Origin: an uncultured SAR86 cluster bacterium
Lineage (GTDB): Bacteria; Pseudomonadota; Gammaproteobacteria; Magnimaribacterales; Magnimaribacteraceae
Assembly: GCA_938048695.1 (NCBI GenBank)
Contig: CALIUO010000007.1
Coordinates: 173,556-237,555, forward strand
DNA: 64,000 nt
Reading direction: 5' to 3'
Under the pieces are notes generated by a model. That model saw nothing but the letters and a program-made list of their open reading frames with translations. It had not been told where the DNA came from and made no database searches. A program made the position numbers and the translations under genes. Of the stretch, positions 1 to 54,122 are shown in pieces. The first letter of the stretch is position 1. Every line of letters begins with the position of its first letter.

Positions 1-78
1 TTCTAGTTTAGAGATTATAGATGATGTCTGATCGGACTGATCAGGATGGACTAAAAATACAATTTCGTAGTTTCTCAT
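1..78 (-). CDS. rpsF: 30S ribosomal protein S6, N-terminal part (runs off the window)
   Basis: The first 26 codons of S6 are read on the minus strand from an ATG at 76-78 to the window edge. The start MRNYEIVFLVHPDQSDQ closely matches the conserved S6 N-terminus (MRxYEIVFLVHPDQS). A Shine-Dalgarno sequence AAGAGG lies at 85-90, well placed for this ATG. S6 binds 16S rRNA with S18 in the small-subunit platform. The gene follows ddl by 75 bases, with a hairpin between them. The remaining three quarters of the protein, and any rpsR or rplI, are outside the window. Confidence 0.93.
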   Translation of the reverse strand, partial: MRNYEIVFLVHPDQSDQTSSIISKLE

Positions 79-94
79 TGTTTTCCTCTTGGTT

Positions 95-122
95 AAAAGC
101 TCTCATGAAACCCATGTAGAGC
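95..122 (-). terminator. Hairpin between ddl and rpsF, probable terminator or leader
   Basis: Reading the minus strand, GCTCT-A-CATG pairs with CATG-AGAGC around a GGTTT loop with one bulged A, followed by TTTTAA. This looks like a weak intrinsic terminator closing the dcw cluster. It ends just upstream of the rpsF ribosome-binding site, so it could instead be part of an rpsF leader. The U-tract is short. Confidence 0.45.
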
Positions 123-153
123 AAGGTGGTGCCAATTTTATTGGTATGCAGTC

Positions 154-1107
154 TTATTTGCAAGATAAATACAGAACTTTAATAACCATATCATCAAACG
201 AAAGGCCTGCGTATGATGCTGCTTTAGGAAAAAGACTGGTCTCTGTAAGTCCAGGCACGGTATTGACTTCTATTATCTGAAAATTACCCTCTCTGTCTTC
301 AATGAAATCAACCCTCCCCCAATGGTTACAGCCAAGAGATGAAAATGCATGCCATGCAAAATCTTTGATTTCTTCAAGTTTAGAACCTTCGACATCAGCT
401 TTTATATATTCAGTACCTTGGTCAGCATATTTCGAATCAAAATCATAAAAATCACCTGAAGGTTTGATATGAATCGGGTGAAAAACTTCATCTCCCAAAA
501 TAGAAACTGTTAGTTCCCTCCCTTCAACAAATGCTTCTACTAATATAGATGAATCAAATTTAGATGCTTGCTTCATAGAAGCTTCAAGACTGCCTTTACC
601 AGGTCTCACTATAGATATACCAAAACTTGATCCTTCATTCGCTGGTTTAACAACAAAAGTCTTATCCAATGCAGTAATGTCTTCTTCTCCAGATAAGTGT
701 GGAGTTAATTTCATGTTGGGATTACCTACATTAATTATTTCTACGAAGTCTGGAGTTGGCAGTAATAATTCCCTCCATATCTTTTTAGCCTCAATTTTAT
801 TGAGTGAGGTTTTGCAAGATTGTGAGTTACTACCTGTATATAGAATATTTTTCGATTCAAGAATCTCTTGAATGAAGCCGTCTTCTCCACCCCTTCCATG
901 TAGCGCTATGAATGCGAGGTCAAATTCATCAGATATATTCCTAGCTTCTTTTTCTGAAGTTAGGTCTAAATGAGTATATTCAAGAGATAATCTATCTAAG
1001 GACTCAGAAACTGCAGCTCCCGATCTAATAGATACTTCTCTTTCAGCAGACCATCCTCCGGATAAGAGTAATATCTTCTTACCTTCTAACTCTTTAATGT
1101 GATTCAC
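154..1107 (-). CDS. ddl: D-alanine--D-alanine ligase
   Basis: This cytoplasmic ATP-grasp enzyme joins two D-alanines into the dipeptide used by MurF. The 317-residue protein has the N-terminal lobe with LLSGGWSAEREVSIRSG, the substrate loop region with KPANEGSSFGIS, and the C-terminal ATP/Mg motif EVNTVPGLTETSLFP. Length is normal for DdlB. The start is GTG at 1105-1107, 14 bases inside the end of murC, which suggests translational coupling. It is the last gene of the dcw cluster here. In most Gammaproteobacteria ddl is followed by ftsQ-ftsA-ftsZ, but here rpsF follows. Confidence 0.95.
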   Translation of the reverse strand: MNHIKELEGKKILLLSGGWSAEREVSIRSGAAVSESLDRLSLEYTHLDLTSEKEARNISDEFDLAFIALHGRGGEDGFIQEILESKNILYTGSNSQSCKTSLNKIEAKKIWRELLLPTPDFVEIINVGNPNMKLTPHLSGEEDITALDKTFVVKPANEGSSFGISIVRPGKGSLEASMKQASKFDSSILVEAFVEGRELTVSILGDEVFHPIHIKPSGDFYDFDSKYADQGTEYIKADVEGSKLEEIKDFAWHAFSSLGCNHWGRVDFIEDREGNFQIIEVNTVPGLTETSLFPKAASYAGLSFDDMVIKVLYLSCK

Positions 1108-2497
1108 TATAAAATTCCTTAGCTACCGCTTTGCTAATAGTAGAAATATCACCAGCCCCCTGAAATACAAAAACAGTATTAGAGTCTATTGTTTTATCTA
1201 AATCTTTTAAAATATTATTTTTATCAGAGAATAAAGTAACTTTTTGAAAACCTTCTTTCAGAAGTGAATTCTTAATATTTTCACTATCGATACCTTCAAT
1301 TTTATTTTCTCCCGCAGAATAGATATCTAAAAGCAATAACTGATCAACCCCCTGCAATACTTCTACAAATTCATCGTATAAATCACTAGTCCTTGTGAAC
1401 CTATGAGGCTGAAAAATCATAATTAATTTATGAGAAGCGTAGGAATCTCTTATGGCTTCAATGGTCTTTTTAATTTCTGTAGGATGATGTCCATAATCAT
1501 CGATATAAATACAATTACTATTTCTAATTTTCTTGGAACCTAAAACTTGCATGCGTCTATCTATTCCCATGAAGTTGCTCAAAGATTCTTTTATGACATT
1601 TATTGAAATGCCTTCTTGTATGCATAGGATAGCAGCTGCTGCAGCATTCAGAACGTTATGTTTACCCAGCATATTTAGAGTTAAATCTAAAGATTCGTTG
1701 GTAGAGGTAAGTTTAAAATATGATTTCATACCTTCGGACTTATAATTAGATATTACATAATCATTGAAAGGTTCAAAACCATAACTGATGTGATTTCTTT
1801 GAAAATGCTTTTTTAAATCTTGAATCACTTCATCGTCTCCACAAACAATAGAAATACCGTTGAAAGGGAGATTTTTAATAAATTTTAAAAATGCATTTTT
1901 TAAGTTTTCAAAACTATTTTCGTAATTAATTAAATGATCAGGCTCAATATTGGTAATTACTGAAACTGAAGGTTGAAGCAACAAGAAGGATTGATCACTT
2001 TCATCAGCTTCAGCAATTAAATATTCTCCCTCACCTAATTGTGCGTTGGAATTAAAGCTATTGATAATTCCACCATTAATAAAAGTCGGATCAAGATCAG
2101 CATTAGTCATAATTGACGCAACCAGACTAGTGGTGGTTGTTTTGCCGTGTGTTCCTGCAATTGCTATGCCCCTCTTATTATTCATAAGACTAGAAAGCAT
2201 TTCAGCTCTTGCCAGGACAGGGATAAATCTATTCTTTGCCTCTTCAATTTCTGGATTATCATCAGATATAGCAGTGGACTTCACCACCATCTCAACTTCT
2301 TCTAGATTAGATAACTTATGTTCGTAAAAAATATTGATACCTAACTTCTCAAGTCTTTGTGTGTTGGAAGAAGAAACATTATCCGAACCGGAAACCTTAT
2401 AACCAAGGTTATTCAAAACCTCAGCGATACCGCTCATACCACTACCTCCAATGCCTACAAAATGGATGTTATTTAGTTTGTATTTTGAGTGATTCAT
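1094..2497 (-). CDS. murC: UDP-N-acetylmuramate--L-alanine ligase
   Basis: MurC adds L-alanine to UDP-MurNAc, the first amino-acid step of the peptidoglycan stem peptide. The protein has the N-terminal nucleotide-sugar motif HFVGIGGSGMSGIAE, the ATP-binding loop AGTHGKTTTTS, and the Mur ligase central and C-terminal domains (DDYGHHPTEI, QPHRFTRT). I chose the ATG at 2495-2497, giving 467 residues. The open frame extends 33 codons further upstream into murG, but that extension is not like the family. The chosen start overlaps murG by 29 bases. murB, often found next to murC, is not present here. Confidence 0.95.
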   Translation of the reverse strand: MNHSKYKLNNIHFVGIGGSGMSGIAEVLNNLGYKVSGSDNVSSSNTQRLEKLGINIFYEHKLSNLEEVEMVVKSTAISDDNPEIEEAKNRFIPVLARAEMLSSLMNNKRGIAIAGTHGKTTTTSLVASIMTNADLDPTFINGGIINSFNSNAQLGEGEYLIAEADESDQSFLLLQPSVSVITNIEPDHLINYENSFENLKNAFLKFIKNLPFNGISIVCGDDEVIQDLKKHFQRNHISYGFEPFNDYVISNYKSEGMKSYFKLTSTNESLDLTLNMLGKHNVLNAAAAAILCIQEGISINVIKESLSNFMGIDRRMQVLGSKKIRNSNCIYIDDYGHHPTEIKKTIEAIRDSYASHKLIMIFQPHRFTRTSDLYDEFVEVLQGVDQLLLLDIYSAGENKIEGIDSENIKNSLLKEGFQKVTLFSDKNNILKDLDKTIDSNTVFVFQGAGDISTISKAVAKEFYSESH

Positions 2498-3542
2498 TAA
2501 TTGTCTTACAAATACTCTCAGAGGTATTAGGAGGAAAAACCAAGGAGGCCTTTTGTCCCATTGATTCTCGCCTATTATGGTCGTTTTCAAGATCAATTAA
2601 TAGCTTGAAAAGAGCTTCTGAATTAGAAAGATCTGAACCTACTATCTCTGCCGCTCCTTTATCTTCGAGATATTTAGCATTCATATATTGATGATTATCT
2701 GAGGCCCATGGCAATGGAAGAAGGACTGATGGCTTTCCTACAGCACATATTTCACTTACCGTCATAGCTCCTGATCTAGAGATTATCAAATCAGAAAACT
2801 TATAAACTTCAGGCATATTTTCAATAAATTCTTTAATTTCAAAATGCACACCAGAATCTTCATAAGCCGCTTTGAGAAGTTTACTATCCAATTTTCCAGC
2901 TTGATGCAGAAAATTCCAATTAGAAGGAACAGAACAGTTCAATAAAATATTCATAAGAATATCATTTATCTGCATAGATCCTTGGCTACCTCCCAATACA
3001 AGTATGTTGAAGTTAGAATCCTCTTCTTTATCCTGTTTCGAGAAATTAAAGATTTCCTTTCTTACAGGATTTCCCACAAATAGGGTTTTTCTGTTAGGCC
3101 GATCAAAAGTATCTGGAAAAGCCTCAAAACTGATTTTTGAAAATCTGTGTAATATTTTATTAGTAAGTCCAGCGATACTGTTCTGTTCATGAATAAATAA
3201 TGGATAGAATAAAGAACCTATTAAGCTTGGAGCAAGAGAAATATAGCCTCCTGTTGAAATTATGAAATCTGGTCTAATCTTGATCAGTAAAATAGAACTC
3301 TTGACTAAAGAAAGCACAAAAAAGTAAAGCGAGACTATCTTGCCAAGTAGACCTTTTCCAAGAAAGCCTCTTCCCTGGATAGAATAAAATTCGTAGCCCT
3401 CTTCTGCACAAAGCTTCTCTTCAAGACTATTTTCTTTTCCGATCCAAGAAATATGGTTTTCTTTTCCTTTGAATTCTCTTGAAATACTTAAAGCAGGATA
3501 TACGTGCCCTCCTGTTCCACCTGCAATAAAAAGAATTTTCAT
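2469..3542 (-). CDS. murG: UDP-GlcNAc:lipid I GlcNAc transferase
   Basis: MurG is a GT-B (GT28) transferase at the inner face of the cytoplasmic membrane. It adds GlcNAc to lipid I to give lipid II. The 357-residue protein begins with the glycine-rich motif IAGGTGGHVYPALS and carries HEQNSIAGLTNK, VGNPVRKE, LGGSQGS and the UDP-GlcNAc-binding stretch ISRSGAMTVSEI near residues 255-266. The start ATG overlaps the ftsW stop by one base (TAATG). Length and gene position between ftsW and murC are standard. Confidence 0.96.
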   Translation of the reverse strand: MKILFIAGGTGGHVYPALSISREFKGKENHISWIGKENSLEEKLCAEEGYEFYSIQGRGFLGKGLLGKIVSLYFFVLSLVKSSILLIKIRPDFIISTGGYISLAPSLIGSLFYPLFIHEQNSIAGLTNKILHRFSKISFEAFPDTFDRPNRKTLFVGNPVRKEIFNFSKQDKEEDSNFNILVLGGSQGSMQINDILMNILLNCSVPSNWNFLHQAGKLDSKLLKAAYEDSGVHFEIKEFIENMPEVYKFSDLIISRSGAMTVSEICAVGKPSVLLPLPWASDNHQYMNAKYLEDKGAAEIVGSDLSNSEALFKLLIDLENDHNRRESMGQKASLVFPPNTSESICKTINESLKIQTK

Positions 3543-4711
3543 TAAAATTTTGCTCTTCGTTTAATTATTGGTACGGGCATAGAATTTTTATTCTCGTAAT
3601 CTATTCTTAAAATTAATCCTATCATTAGACATACTATTATGAGATTGGTGCCCCCTGCACTTATTAAAGGTAAAGTTAAGCCTTTTGTGGGTAGAAGGCC
3701 ACATGCTACTCCCACATTTATAAAAGTATGTAATCCTAATAGAAGAGCAACGCCATAGGAAAAATAAAAACCAAAGAAATTTTTTCTAAGTAAGGATTCT
3801 CTACCGATAAAGAATATTCTAAAAGAGAGTCCAAACAGAAGGGAAACAATAGTAAAGCCTCCTAAAATCCCCGTTTCTTCAACTATTACCGAAAATATAA
3901 AATCGGTATGAGCGTCAGGAAGATACCCCATTTTCATAAGACCTTGACCAAGCCCCACTCCAAACCAATCGCCTCTTCCTATAGACATCAAAGAAAGAGT
4001 AAGTTGATATCCGCTTCCCCAGGGATCACTCCACGGATCTATGAAAGAAATTATCCTCTCCCATCTCCAGGGAACGAATACAATCATCAAGGTAGCTGCT
4101 ACAAAACCTAAAAAGGCTACTATAAAAAATTGCTTTATCTTAACTCCAGCTACAAATAAAACTCCCAGTACCGAAGCAAATATTACTGCTGAAGAGCCTA
4201 GATCAGGTTGTATGAGTATTATGGATATAATACTAACAATTATTATTGCTGGCCTGAAAAACCCTATCCAATGTGACTGAATTTCTTTTATTCTTCTTAC
4301 TGAATAGCAAGACACATAAAGAATACTTAAAAACTTCATTATTTCAGAAGGCTGAAGACCAAATCCAGCAACTCTGATCCATCTGTTTGCTCCATTTACT
4401 TCAAACCCAATACCGGGCACAAAAACTAATAGAAGCAATATAAAGCCTAAAGTTATCAATAAGCGATCATAAGCAATCCAAAAATTAAGAGGCAATATAA
4501 AAAATATAAGCAATCCAAATAAACCAAGAAAAAAGTAAAAAAGCTGACGATTAAATATTGCTGAAGGATTGCCATAAATTGAGTCTGAGAAATGAACTGA
4601 AGCTGAAGCCAGAATGAGAAGACCTGAGAAGCTCAGAACAGAGAATAAACTTAATAAGATAAAATCGATTTTTGAGTAATCAAATTGATTAAAAAAATTA
4701 ATTCTATTCAT
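3542..4711 (-). CDS. ftsW: Septal peptidoglycan glycosyltransferase FtsW (SEDS family)
   Basis: FtsW polymerises lipid II into septal glycan strands together with its partner FtsI. The 389-residue protein is strongly hydrophobic with about ten predicted membrane segments. It carries family signatures NGANRWIRVAGFGLQPSE near residue 105-122, QPDLGSS near 170, and the C-terminal LPLISAGGTN. It overlaps the end of murD by eight bases and touches murG. The catalytic partner ftsI lies several genes upstream in this same cluster. Confidence 0.95.
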   Translation of the reverse strand: MNRINFFNQFDYSKIDFILLSLFSVLSFSGLLILASASVHFSDSIYGNPSAIFNRQLFYFFLGLFGLLIFFILPLNFWIAYDRLLITLGFILLLLVFVPGIGFEVNGANRWIRVAGFGLQPSEIMKFLSILYVSCYSVRRIKEIQSHWIGFFRPAIIIVSIISIILIQPDLGSSAVIFASVLGVLFVAGVKIKQFFIVAFLGFVAATLMIVFVPWRWERIISFIDPWSDPWGSGYQLTLSLMSIGRGDWFGVGLGQGLMKMGYLPDAHTDFIFSVIVEETGILGGFTIVSLLFGLSFRIFFIGRESLLRKNFFGFYFSYGVALLLGLHTFINVGVACGLLPTKGLTLPLISAGGTNLIIVCLMIGLILRIDYENKNSMPVPIIKRRAKF

Positions 4712-6008
4712 CTGCTAAATCGCTAACGATTTTTTTAAACTCGTTACCTCGCTCCTTGTAATCTTTATACATGTCTAAACTTGAACATGCTGGAGAAAGC
4801 ATAATGTAATCACCTGCACTGGATATTTTTAAAGCATGGGCGACGGCCTCTTTCAGGTCGCCTACAAGGTTGCATTTTGTGAACTCATTGATATATTTAT
4901 AGATTATCTCTTTATCCTTTCCAAATATTATTGCATTTTTGATTTTTTGAACTTCAGTAAGGTTTACCGATGCAATATTTTGATTTTTAAGATCACCTCC
5001 ACAAATTAGATAAATATCTTTTGTTTGTTTAATCTCATTGGCTGCCTTTATGGCCTTTAGCATGGCATCTATATTTGTTGCTTTAGAATCGTTTATGAAA
5101 TTCACTCCTTTTATATTTCCTATGAATTCAAATCTATGCGATGGTTTTATAAAATTTGCAAAAGCGGCCTCTAATTTATTAGTCGAATTAAAGTCTCTAA
5201 ATGATAAATTTGTAAAGTTTTCAAAATAACAATCTAAAACGGCCAAAGAAGCTTTTAGGTTGTCCTTGTCATGGCTTGGCCATCTTTTAAATGTATCCGA
5301 GTCAATTAAATCTATTGGAAGATTCATATCCTTGAAGTTTCTGAAATCTTTCTTAAAGTGATTCTTGGAATCAAAAGAAATATTAAAAGTTGAATTTTCG
5401 AGTACTGAATATTTAATTTTTTTGTAATTTTCAAAATTTAAATGTCTATCTATATGATCTTCTTCAATATTTAGTAATAGACCTAAATCAAATTCTATCT
5501 CTTTAAGAAGTTCTAGCTGAAAGCTGGAAACTTCAATTATAGATACGTCTATATCTTTATTAATGCTATCAAGCACAGGTTCTCCAATATTTCCTAACAC
5601 CAAGGTTTTGAGATCTGGTAGGAAAGTATCAAAGAATCTCTTTATCATAAGACATGTTGATGTTTTGCCATTCGTGCCAGTTACAAGAATTTTTTTACTC
5701 TTATTTAACTGAATAAATTCTTGGATATCTGATGAAATATGAATATTAAACCTAGAAGCATAAGAAAAAATCTCGTGGTCATTTGGGATTCCAGGACTTG
5801 TATAGATAGTTGATACCTTGGCTAATAAATCCTCATTTATAGTAGGGTTAATATCAAGCTTTAAATTTGGGTGCTTTATATCATTAAGCACTGAATTATC
5901 TACTGAATCTTCAATAATGATAATTTCTTCATGCAGGCTAGAGAGATAGTTTACTAATGATCTACCTGTTATTCCTAAACCGATAACTAAAGGTATTTTT
6001 TTCTGCAC
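4704..6008 (-). CDS. murD: UDP-N-acetylmuramoyl-L-alanine--D-glutamate ligase
   Basis: MurD adds D-glutamate to the growing muropeptide precursor in the cytoplasm. The 434-residue protein shows the N-terminal GLGITGRS motif, the ATP loop [11 protein letters not shown] near residues 109-119, EVSSFQLE near 160, and the Mur ligase signatures SHRFEFIG and FINDSKATN. Length is normal for MurD. It lies between mraY (five-base gap) and ftsW (eight-base overlap), the standard order. Confidence 0.95.
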   Translation of the reverse strand: MQKKIPLVIGLGITGRSLVNYLSSLHEEIIIIEDSVDNSVLNDIKHPNLKLDINPTINEDLLAKVSTIYTSPGIPNDHEIFSYASRFNIHISSDIQEFIQLNKSKKILVTGTNGKTSTCLMIKRFFDTFLPDLKTLVLGNIGEPVLDSINKDIDVSIIEVSSFQLELLKEIEFDLGLLLNIEEDHIDRHLNFENYKKIKYSVLENSTFNISFDSKNHFKKDFRNFKDMNLPIDLIDSDTFKRWPSHDKDNLKASLAVLDCYFENFTNLSFRDFNSTNKLEAAFANFIKPSHRFEFIGNIKGVNFINDSKATNIDAMLKAIKAANEIKQTKDIYLICGGDLKNQNIASVNLTEVQKIKNAIIFGKDKEIIYKYINEFTKCNLVGDLKEAVAHALKISSAGDYIMLSPACSSLDMYKDYKERGNEFKKIVSDLADE

Positions 6009-6013
6009 GAGAT

Positions 6014-7096
6014 TTATCTAAGTCTTAATAGAGCCAAGCCCAGCAATACAAGCATAAAGGTGATGATCCAAAATCTAACTATCACTCTTGGTTCTGGCCA
6101 ACCTTTTAATTCATAATGATGATGCAAAGGAGCCATGTTAAAAACTCTTTTTCCGGTTAATTTAAATGAGGCCACTTGCACTATTACAGATAAAGCTTCT
6201 ATTACAAACAAACCACCCATCACCAATAAAACATACTCATGTCGAATAATGACAGTGACAATTCCTAGAGATGCTCCAAGTGACAATGACCCAACATCAC
6301 CCATAAAAACTTGAGCAGGATAGGTATTGAACCATAAAAAACCTATGCCAGAACCTACTAGAGCTCCACAAAATACAATCATCTCTCCTGTTCCAGGCAA
6401 GTAAGGAATATTTAAAAAATCTGAATAAATAGCGTTACCAGCTAAATAACCTATTATTCCAAGGCCTGCCGCTACCATTACGCAAGGCAATATAGCCAGT
6501 CCATCTAAGCCATCTGTCAAATTTACTGCGTTACTCGTCCCGATCACAACAAGATATGAAAGAAGTATGAAGCCTAGACCAAGAGGGATTGAAACGTCCT
6601 TGAAAAAAGGAACAATCAGGCTTGTTTCTGCAATACTTTCTTGACTAAGATACAAATAAGAACAGGCCAAGATGGCAATGACTGATTGCCATAAAATCTT
6701 GTTTACAGGAGATAAGCCATCGCTGCTTTTGTGCTTAATTTTTAATCGATCGTCAATCCACCCAAGCACTCCAAAGGACATAGCTGTTAGAAAGGCTACC
6801 CATAGATATCTATTTTCTAGATCGCCCCACAAAATCACGCTTAAGAATATTGAACTCAAGATCAAAGTTCCTCCCATCGTAGGAGTGCCCTGCTTAGATA
6901 AATGAGATTGAGGTCCCTCGGAACGTATAACCTGTCCAACTTGGAAGTCGCGCATTTTATTTATAAATTTAGGGCCTAAGATCAGAGAAAACATAAGTGA
7001 AGTCAGAGTGGCCAATATTGCTCGAGTCGATAAAAACTCTACTACCCGGAAGGGTCCAAAAAATTCAGATAAGTATTCAAATAAAGGTAGAAGCAT
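6014..7096 (-). CDS. mraY: Phospho-N-acetylmuramoyl-pentapeptide transferase
   Basis: MraY transfers phospho-MurNAc-pentapeptide to undecaprenyl phosphate, forming lipid I in the inner membrane. The 360-residue polytopic protein has all key motifs: KQGTPTMGG near residue 69, the LGWIDDRLK aspartate pair near 115, [13 protein letters not shown] near 190, [18 protein letters not shown] near 258, and [15 protein letters not shown] near 320. Length equals that of the E. coli enzyme. Its start overlaps the murF stop by one base. Confidence 0.97.
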
Positions 7097-53431: not shown

Positions 53432-53460
53432 AAAAAAAAGGCACCCTTTTAGAGTGCCTT
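53432..53460 (-). terminator. Strong intrinsic terminator after small membrane protein gene B
   Basis: Reading the minus strand, AAGGCAC pairs perfectly with GTGCCTT, followed by eight Ts (53432-53439). It lies 15 bases after the stop of the 77-residue gene and directly before the hydrolase start. Confidence 0.9.
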
Positions 53461-53474
53461 CTTAAAAGTCCGTT

Positions 53475-53708
53475 TTAACTTGATCTAGAGTTCCAAACAC
53501 TCAATATAATTATAATTGCGATGATTAGTCCTAGACCTTCTGATCCGAGAGTTTCCATTACTATTCTGGTATTTTCAAGTATTCCTCCAAAGAAAGGTAC
53601 GTTGTTACCAAACAACAATGAAATCAATATGGCTACAGCCACAACTAGAGCCAAAAATTTTGTTAATTCCCACAAAATTCTTGATAGCCTATTTATTGTG
53701 TCCAACAT
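53475..53708 (-). CDS. Small two-helix membrane protein, unknown family (paralogue B)
   Basis: I do not recognise this 77-residue protein. It has a short basic/polar start, a hydrophobic segment (about residues 17-33), a glycine-proline loop with FGNNVPFFGGILEN at 33-46, TLGSEGL at 53-59, and a second hydrophobic segment (59-71). It is clearly a paralogue of the next gene at 53788-54006: both share FG-x2-VPF-x-GG-[IV]-L-[DE]-N and TLG-x-EGL. A GGGGG Shine-Dalgarno lies five bases before the ATG. The gene sits between two strong terminators, with only 23 bases between the upstream T-tract and its ATG. It has no signal of lipidation or enzyme motif. Function unknown. Confidence 0.85.
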   Translation of the reverse strand: MLDTINRLSRILWELTKFLALVVAVAILISLLFGNNVPFFGGILENTRIVMETLGSEGLGLIIAIIIILSVWNSRSS

Positions 53709-53731
53709 ATTTCCCCCTGTTACTGACCCTT

Positions 53732-53766
53732 AAAAAAAGAAAGGGGTACCTTGAAGGCCCCCTTTC
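53732..53766 (-). terminator. Strong intrinsic terminator after small membrane protein gene A
   Basis: Reading the minus strand, GAAAGGGG pairs with CCCCTTTC, extended inward by GCCTT/AAGGT-like pairing, and is followed by seven Ts (53732-53738). It separates the two paralogous genes. Confidence 0.9.
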
Positions 53767-53787
53767 CAATGATAGCTAAGAAGAGAC

Positions 53788-54006
53788 TTATCTATACATG
53801 TCAAGCAGAACCGCTAGAACAATAAGACCTACTAAACCTTCTCCACCTAAAGTGTTTACTAATCCTAGTAGATTGTCTAGAACTCCGCCAACAAAAGGAA
53901 CTCCTGAACCGAAAACAACTCCAGCTGCAACTCCCAATGCAACTAAAGAAACTATGATTCCAGTTAAAGATCCAATAACGTCTCTCAACATATTTAAAGC
54001 ATTCAT
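53788..54006 (-). CDS. Small two-helix membrane protein, unknown family (paralogue A)
   Basis: This 72-residue protein is the paralogue of the one at 53475-53708. It has a hydrophobic segment (about residues 14-33), the loop FGSGVPFVGGVLDN at 32-45, TLGGEGL at 52-58, and a second hydrophobic segment (58-70). Glycine content is high. GGGTG lies just upstream of the ATG, and a promoter with 17-base spacing is seen at 54059-54087. A strong terminator follows, so it is probably a monocistronic and well-expressed gene. I do not recognise the family. Length and topology are reminiscent of holins or small stress proteins, but no evidence supports either. Confidence 0.85.
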   Translation of the reverse strand: MNALNMLRDVIGSLTGIIVSLVALGVAAGVVFGSGVPFVGGVLDNLLGLVNTLGGEGLVGLIVLAVLLDMYR

Positions 54007-54036
54007 ATTTCACCCATTTATTTGCTAAACAAAAGC

Positions 54037-54050
54037 CCAGATAAATCTGG
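54037..54050. promoter_or_regulatory. Perfect 14-bp palindrome near the predicted start of transcription
   Basis: CCAGATAAATCTGG reads the same on both strands. It lies at about +2 to +15 of the predicted transcript of the 72-residue membrane protein gene. It could be a repressor operator or a 5' stem-loop. On the minus strand it is followed by GCTTTTGTTT, so it might also act as a weak terminator for the pnp transcript. Confidence 0.5.
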
Positions 54051-54058
54051 ACCATCAA

Positions 54059-54087
54059 ATTTAACAGGATGAAATCTATTAAAACAA
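54059..54087 (-). promoter_or_regulatory. Candidate sigma70 promoter of small membrane protein gene A
   Basis: On the minus strand TTGTTT at 54082-54087 and TTAAAT at 54059-54064 are separated by 17 bases. Transcription would start near 54052, some 45 bases before the ATG at 54006. It lies in the 116-base gap after pnp. Confidence 0.5.
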
Positions 54088-54122
54088 ATGCTCCCCTACC
54101 ATAAAAGTTAATTAATTACAAA

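Follow-up and report, generated by a model that had tools for sequence, protein, structure and literature searches.

Two short adjacent genes of a SAR86 bacterium, termed A and B, encode paralogous small membrane proteins of a family that is real and, as far as the searched libraries show, undescribed. Silent sites in A were found, in four lineages, to change more slowly than those of adjacent ribosomal protein and translation-factor genes, which points to a product made in very large amounts, and this presumably abundant product has neither a name nor a family model. The explanation that we favor, tentatively and without holding it to be probable, is that A and B are related subunits of a single inner-membrane assembly in which A is in large excess over B. 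Homology, gene order, distribution, compensated hairpins, the low silent-site divergence of A, and the distribution of charge were computed, and from these we infer high expression, an excess of A, read-through, topology, A-B association, and a structural role. SAR86 ranks with the most numerous bacteria of the surface ocean and, to our knowledge, is known almost only from sequence.

The window, that is, the whole stretch of 64,000 nucleotides that was analyzed, derives from a genome of 1.33 Mb that is 85% complete and has its nearest relatives in SAR86. Gene A occupies positions 53788..54006 of the minus strand and encodes 72 amino acids comprising an amphipathic N-terminal start, membrane helix 1, a middle amphipathic helix, and a short membrane helix 2. 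Gene B (53475..53708, minus strand), its paralogue, encodes 77 amino acids, the end of which, LGSEGLGLIIAIIIILSVWNSRS, is strongly conserved. The pair is flanked on one side by a gene that we take to be pnp and on the other by what is presumably an alpha/beta-hydrolase-like gene. Both small tandem ORFs were present where a preceding sequence-only reading of this DNA had placed them, and the tandem paralogy that it proposed was borne out. Pairwise protein comparison of A with B gave 34% identity across 56 residues (E 6e-12), and comparison of the A family profile with the B family profile gave a probability of 98.6% (E 4.8e-16); on these comparisons, A and B are true paralogues. The motifs FG-x2-VPF-x-GG-[VI]-L-[DE]-N and TLG-x-EGL, which had been described in the same reading, were likewise found in the A/B proteins.

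Neither A nor B gave a significant match to Pfam, NCBIfam, or PHROGs, and when 40 A/B members were compared with Pfam and NCBIfam the best E value was 0.01, with none significant. No match was obtained to PDB sequences or, for the predicted folds, to PDB folds, an Rfam search at the A/B unit returned sub-threshold chance matches only, and the library of papers that was searched contained none of relevance to small membrane proteins of SAR86 or SAR92. The earlier description of small membrane proteins from an unrecognized family, encoded by duplicated and insulated genes, stands, the pair matching no characterized family. The traits by which the family is defined here, and which were found in it, are FG-x(1-2)-[VA]-x-F-x-G, N-x8-G-x2-G in the helix 2 region, two membrane helices, and a terminator following A. 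Weak matches of a few members to the conjugative type IV secretion pilins PF18895 and NF045849 were observed at E values of 0.12 and 0.013. These pilins are, like A and B, short two-helix proteins, but the predicted orientation of A/B is opposite to theirs and no cleaved signal peptide is apparent in A/B; membership was rejected, the score being 12.9 bits against a curated cut-off of 26.6. No secretion genes were seen in A/B neighborhoods. A phage origin or a holin or lysis role was also rejected, since no A/B relatives were found among 50,697 phage records or in viral contigs. C20, a 105-residue conserved membrane protein of no clear family that contains GGLPVIGG, lies downstream of the pair in one Porticoccaceae group (L044, L056, L063, L065, L066, and L067, at about 5630-6150) and has relatively low synonymous divergence; its candidacy as a third A/B relative was tested and found to be unsupported.

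Within the SAR86 genus, A or B was detected in 14 of 19 genomes; the five genomes with neither are 63-82% complete, and this incompleteness may account for much of the absence. Matches were present in 26 of 35 genomes of the SAR86 family, including all four that are at least 90% complete, and the pair was found in two of the three other families of the order (G065 and G317). G210, which belongs to the same order and is 97% complete on one contig, does not have the pair. Close A relatives with B adjoining occur in SAR92/Porticoccaceae, a sample of the class gave matches in 7 of 369 genomes, and a search at phylum level yielded no credible new lineage; a match in G577 at that level was rejected as a chance one inside a VapBC-like region. 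More distant A-like genes are present in G136, G253, G261, and G359. In G136 and G253, the A-like gene is followed downstream by a B-like gene with a longer loop, whereas A occurs with no detectable B in G359 and in G261, the single A-like gene of the latter having a Lys/Thr repeat tail. An A/B-like protein with a long, nearly pure KT-repeat tail is also encoded at L073:1150-1701 (minus strand) in a genome of 2.7 Mb. A tree of 40 members allowed the A proteins and the B proteins to form one group each, with weak support (46/40) attributable to the shortness of the proteins. Homologues are thus present in relatives, and the sequence-only proposal that gene duplication in a streamlined genome implies a SAR86-specific role proved too narrow, given the pair in SAR92/Porticoccaceae and the A-like genes in a few further families of gammaproteobacteria.

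Where both genes exist, A and B are adjacent and in unchanged order in every lineage (SAR86, its order-level relatives, and SAR92/Porticoccaceae), although they occupy unrelated genomic positions. In SAR86, the neighbors of the pair are presumably pnp and the hydrolase gene. In the SAR92-type loci L040, L042, L045, and L054, the upstream genes were read as crtI-crtB-crtY-blh-idi, a presumed retinal synthesis cluster; this crtI-crtB-crtY-blh-idi-like cluster (about 1-4800, upstream of A) was observed only in SAR92-type genomes, with the pair directly after it. Another Porticoccaceae group has what we take to be an ABC-F-like ATPase gene beside the pair, and in a Woeseia-like group the genes upstream of A are a presumed mutY-like gene and a yggX-like gene, the latter confirmed as Iron_traffic. 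Because the neighbors vary by lineage, we regard the pair as a self-contained unit. As a separate observation, the upstream gene at L066:608 is near-identical between L066 and L065 (silent-site difference 0.01) against 0.3-0.6 for all neighbors, which suggests recent transfer or recombination of that gene.

In nine Woeseia-like loci, A is followed by a different gene, C2, which encodes about 209-226 amino acids in full copies, with a membrane helix at either end; the two helices are separated by 116-146 residues that resemble a coiled coil. The ends of C2 are conserved and the insert is hypervariable. C2 follows A at L050, L053, L058, L060, and relatives; in L058 an (EA)n/(KQ)n repeat tract divides it between two overlapping frames, whereas L057 has a single frame at that place. 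A match of G065 to the C2 profile was discarded, being interrupted by stops. The C-terminal 39 columns of C2 align ungapped to B and share N-x8-G-x2-G with it, with a weak score (probability 7%, P 0.005), and the gene slot and residue pattern suggest that C2 is a long B. The short B of SAR86 and the long coiled-coil C2 in the same slot elsewhere offer a clean comparison.

A promoter for A was read from the sequence as a predicted -35 box, TTGTTT (54082..54087, minus strand), placed 17 nt from a predicted -10 box, TTAAAT (54059..54064, minus strand), the latter conserved in SAR86; this promoter scored below the limits of a simple promoter scan. The A transcript is predicted to begin with a hairpin, GTCCAGA-tttA-TCTGGGC (54035..54052, minus strand), with a folding energy of -9.6 kcal/mol. 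Both boxes and the hairpin are kept in 19 SAR86 sequences, across which the TTG of the -35 box and the surrounding columns are invariant or nearly so. Across 18 distinct SAR86 sequences, the hairpin showed 100% standard pairs, with compensatory changes on both sides at 4 of 7 pairs, and its covariation score was reached by 0 of 500 shuffles. A perfect palindrome had been proposed at the transcript start. A conserved, compensated hairpin directly after the promoter boxes makes such an element at the predicted start of A well supported, but it is not strictly perfect, CCAGAT-TT-ATCTGG being an inverted repeat, inside the hairpin, whose arms are 6 bp long. Read-through from pnp might also be terminated by this hairpin. 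Hairpins of different sequence occupy the same place in SAR92-like and Woeseia-like leaders, and the leaders of the SAR92-like L040 and the Woeseia-like L050, L053, and L060 folded better than shuffled sequences (z about -2.4 to -2.8). The Porticoccaceae leaders L044, L065, and L066 folded no better than shuffles (z near 0), and the start hairpin of A is clear in some lineages only.

The terminator that had been placed behind each gene was recovered in both cases. The A-B hairpin (53739..53766, minus strand; -18.0 kcal/mol) is followed by a T run at 53738-53732, and the terminator of B (53432..53461, minus strand; -15.3 kcal/mol) also has a T run after the hairpin; both were missed by a simple scan and found by folding. 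The A-B hairpin is kept in 27 A-B spacers, with 95% of cells paired and 3 of 8 pairs compensated, and an equivalent hairpin is present in A-C2 spacers. A terminator hairpin downstream of A was found at SAR86, SAR92/Porticoccaceae, Woeseia-like, and distant loci, and a hairpin with a T run lies behind B in most relatives. In the window, about 23 nt separate the A-B T run from the start of B. This is too little for a full promoter, and B would therefore be reached by read-through or by a start at the end of A; under either arrangement, it is plausible that the output of B would be below that of A.

Silent-site difference (pS) in A was compared with that in neighboring genes, pair by pair. A had the lowest pS of its neighborhood in 24 of 28 genome pairs from four lineages, whereas B or C2 was lowest in none of the 28, although B is equally short; the 28 pairs are not mutually independent, but the four lineages and sites are. 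In SAR86, comparisons with 14 relatives covered up to 12 genes each; A had the lowest pS in 12 of these comparisons, and rpsO was lower in the other 2. For the six nearest (L029-L033 and L041), pS was 0.14-0.40 for A, 0.24-0.69 for B, 0.66-0.77 for pnp, and 0.40-0.81 for rpsO. A was again lowest in 12 of 14 SAR92-like, Porticoccaceae, and Woeseia-like pairs. In L060/L061, the pS of A was 0.02 against 0.33-0.67 for neighbors, in L050/L053 it was 0.23 against 0.65-0.77, and between the window and L031 it was 0.14 against 0.40-0.78, except for B at 0.24. At gene starts, low synonymous rates can be mutational and so misleading (PMC12725619); the low pS of A changed little when the first 15 codons were left out. 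Both A and B are under strong purifying selection (dN/dS about 0.06-0.24).

Highly expressed genes show lower synonymous rates in bacteria (PMC10849182), and 5' stem-loops stabilize mRNAs (PMC7509114). The conserved predicted start hairpin, taken with very low synonymous divergence in four lineages, argues for high expression of A. The strong expression proposed by the sequence-only reading is on these grounds upheld for A. The equivalence of the two genes that had been supposed is not supported: B shows no comparable synonymous constraint, and the B slot of Woeseia-like genomes is filled by a much larger, fast-evolving protein. Codon bias gave no sign of high expression (z +1.0 for A and -0.8 for B), which counts against the explanation that we favor. 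Ribosomal genes of the source genome show almost no codon preference over its other genes, and codon bias is for this reason uninformative as a proxy for expression here.

Single-chain AlphaFold2 models placed helices at residues 3-32, 37-55, and 58-71 of A (mean pLDDT 79, pTM 0.35) and at 2-33, 40-54, and 56-76 of B (mean pLDDT 82, pTM 0.48); given the low pTM values, secondary structure alone was used. The shared motif had been described as lying between two hydrophobic helices. Two membrane helices are indeed predicted, but the models place a third, middle helix between them instead of a plain loop. The N-terminal stretch is amphipathic in both proteins, more so in B. The loops of 32 A proteins contain no Lys or Arg and an average of 2.6 Asp/Glu, with Lys/Arg at both ends of the protein; positive charges lie at the protein ends generally, strongly so in C2. 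By the positive-inside rule, both ends would be cytoplasmic and the loop, or the coiled coil of C2, periplasmic. The hydrophobic helices suggest an inner-membrane location.

Under the favored explanation, each protein would begin with an amphipathic N terminus on the cytoplasmic side, followed by a membrane helix, a periplasmic turn whose middle helix would lie on the membrane surface, and a sharp G-x-x-G turn into a second, short membrane helix whose end would be cytoplasmic. One message would begin at the conserved hairpin that precedes A and would be protected by it at the 5' end; most transcripts would terminate at the hairpin behind A, and some would continue into B. A would on this view serve as a major building block, with a minor partner in B or, in Woeseia-like genomes, in the coiled-coil-bearing C2. 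As a first guess, the role would be that of a structural scaffold or membrane-shaping array, on account of the proposed abundance, the wedge-like arrangement of helices, and a coiled-coil partner that is optional. Our second guess is a pore. A bolder form of this proposal, which we consider possible but doubtful, is that A ranks with the most abundant proteins in the inner membrane of SAR86 and of related marine bacteria and forms with B or C2 a hitherto unrecognized hetero-oligomeric membrane scaffold in which RNA hairpins tune A above its partner.

The chief alternative, in our estimate rather unlikely, is that the two paralogues have separate functions, in which case the terminator would simply insulate A, and B would be expressed from a weak promoter of its own located at the end of A. 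The presence of two terminators would fit this arrangement, as would TATCAT just upstream of the A-B hairpin, where cTTAGCTAT is conserved in SAR86, and the occurrence of A without detectable B in G359 and G261. The window nevertheless has no good -35 element at the right distance from TATCAT, and the constancy of A/B adjacency and order at differing genomic sites speaks against it. The low pS of A might instead have a cause other than expression, such as recombination or infrequent mutation at the locus, a function of the coding sequence as RNA, or a gene that overlaps it in antisense; we judge this improbable. Reduced synonymous rates can be mutational (PMC12725619), and an antisense frame at 53798-54028 (plus strand) spans all of A without interruption in the window and in about half of the relatives. 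Against this, the low pS of A recurs in each of four lineages, at differing genomic sites and next to a B or C2 that evolves normally, and the effect persists past codon 15. No covarying RNA fold was detected within the A coding sequence (covariation term 0.02), and the antisense frame was rejected as a gene, being broken in 11 of 23 sequences, including pairs under strong constraint.

Quite improbable, in turn, is a homo-oligomeric pore or channel made of A that would work in the manner of MscL or of a proteolipid ring, B being a variant form or a regulatory subunit. Like A, MscL has an amphipathic N terminus, a Gly-rich helix 1 with GVxxGxxFG, a periplasmic segment, and helix 2, and MscL was absent from every one of the 15 genomes with A that were tested, compared with 9 of 29 others. 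However, A is half the length of MscL and has no C-terminal bundle, and hhalign profile comparison with seven MscL proteins gave probabilities of 0.7-2.7% over 12-14 columns. The 15 genomes come mostly from one family, and MscL is also absent from other small marine genomes without A, so that genome size explains its absence; MscS, moreover, is present in 13 of the 15, and there is no PDB fold match. Membership of the MscL family (PF01741) was rejected on the profile comparison and on these MscL-free genomes without A. A search of 12 SAR86-order genomes, of which 9 belong to the SAR86 family, found no MscL. A two-peptide bacteriocin, holin, or toxin pair, very improbable in our view, would account for small, hydrophobic, tandem proteins with helix-packing glycines, but hardly for near-universal occurrence in the SAR86 family, the dN/dS values given above, the lack of adjoining immunity or transport genes, or the absence from phage records and viral contigs. 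Service to proteorhodopsin or other retinal-based phototrophy is brought to mind by the position of the pair directly downstream of the presumed retinal genes in the four SAR92-type loci and by the presence of rhodopsin in most SAR86 genomes, yet it scarcely merits credence. The pair is present without rhodopsin in G022 (93% complete) and in several further genomes of SAR86, G210 has rhodopsin without the pair, G136, G253, G261, and G359 have A without rhodopsin, and 14 rhodopsin genomes outside SAR86 in the class sample have no A; genomes with one and not the other largely refute the accessory role.

For the favored assembly of A and B, likenesses may be drawn with several known systems, and small paired membrane proteins with hairpin-tuned messages are themselves already known, although no member of the A/B family is. 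Mic10 of mitochondrial cristae is a small, abundant two-helix hairpin protein with glycine motifs that is found beside a coiled-coil partner; it is eukaryotic, and its likeness to A/B is no more than an analogy that brings membrane shaping to mind. Stabilized messages of the ompA type resemble that of A in having a hairpin at or near the 5' end, the A message being presumed abundant as well; OmpA is an outer-membrane barrel, unlike A, and the message design alone is compared. The pufBA genes for the light-harvesting pair of purple bacteria lie side by side and encode membrane proteins that are likewise tiny and related; hairpins stabilize one part of the message and thereby make the amounts unequal. 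The puf antenna proteins differ from A/B in having one membrane helix each and in binding pigment; A/B for their part show no sequence match to them, have a hairpin between the two small genes, and have no photosynthesis genes nearby. What pufBA and A/B have in common are RNA hairpins associated with the message, which in the case of puf mRNA are protective (PMC7509114).
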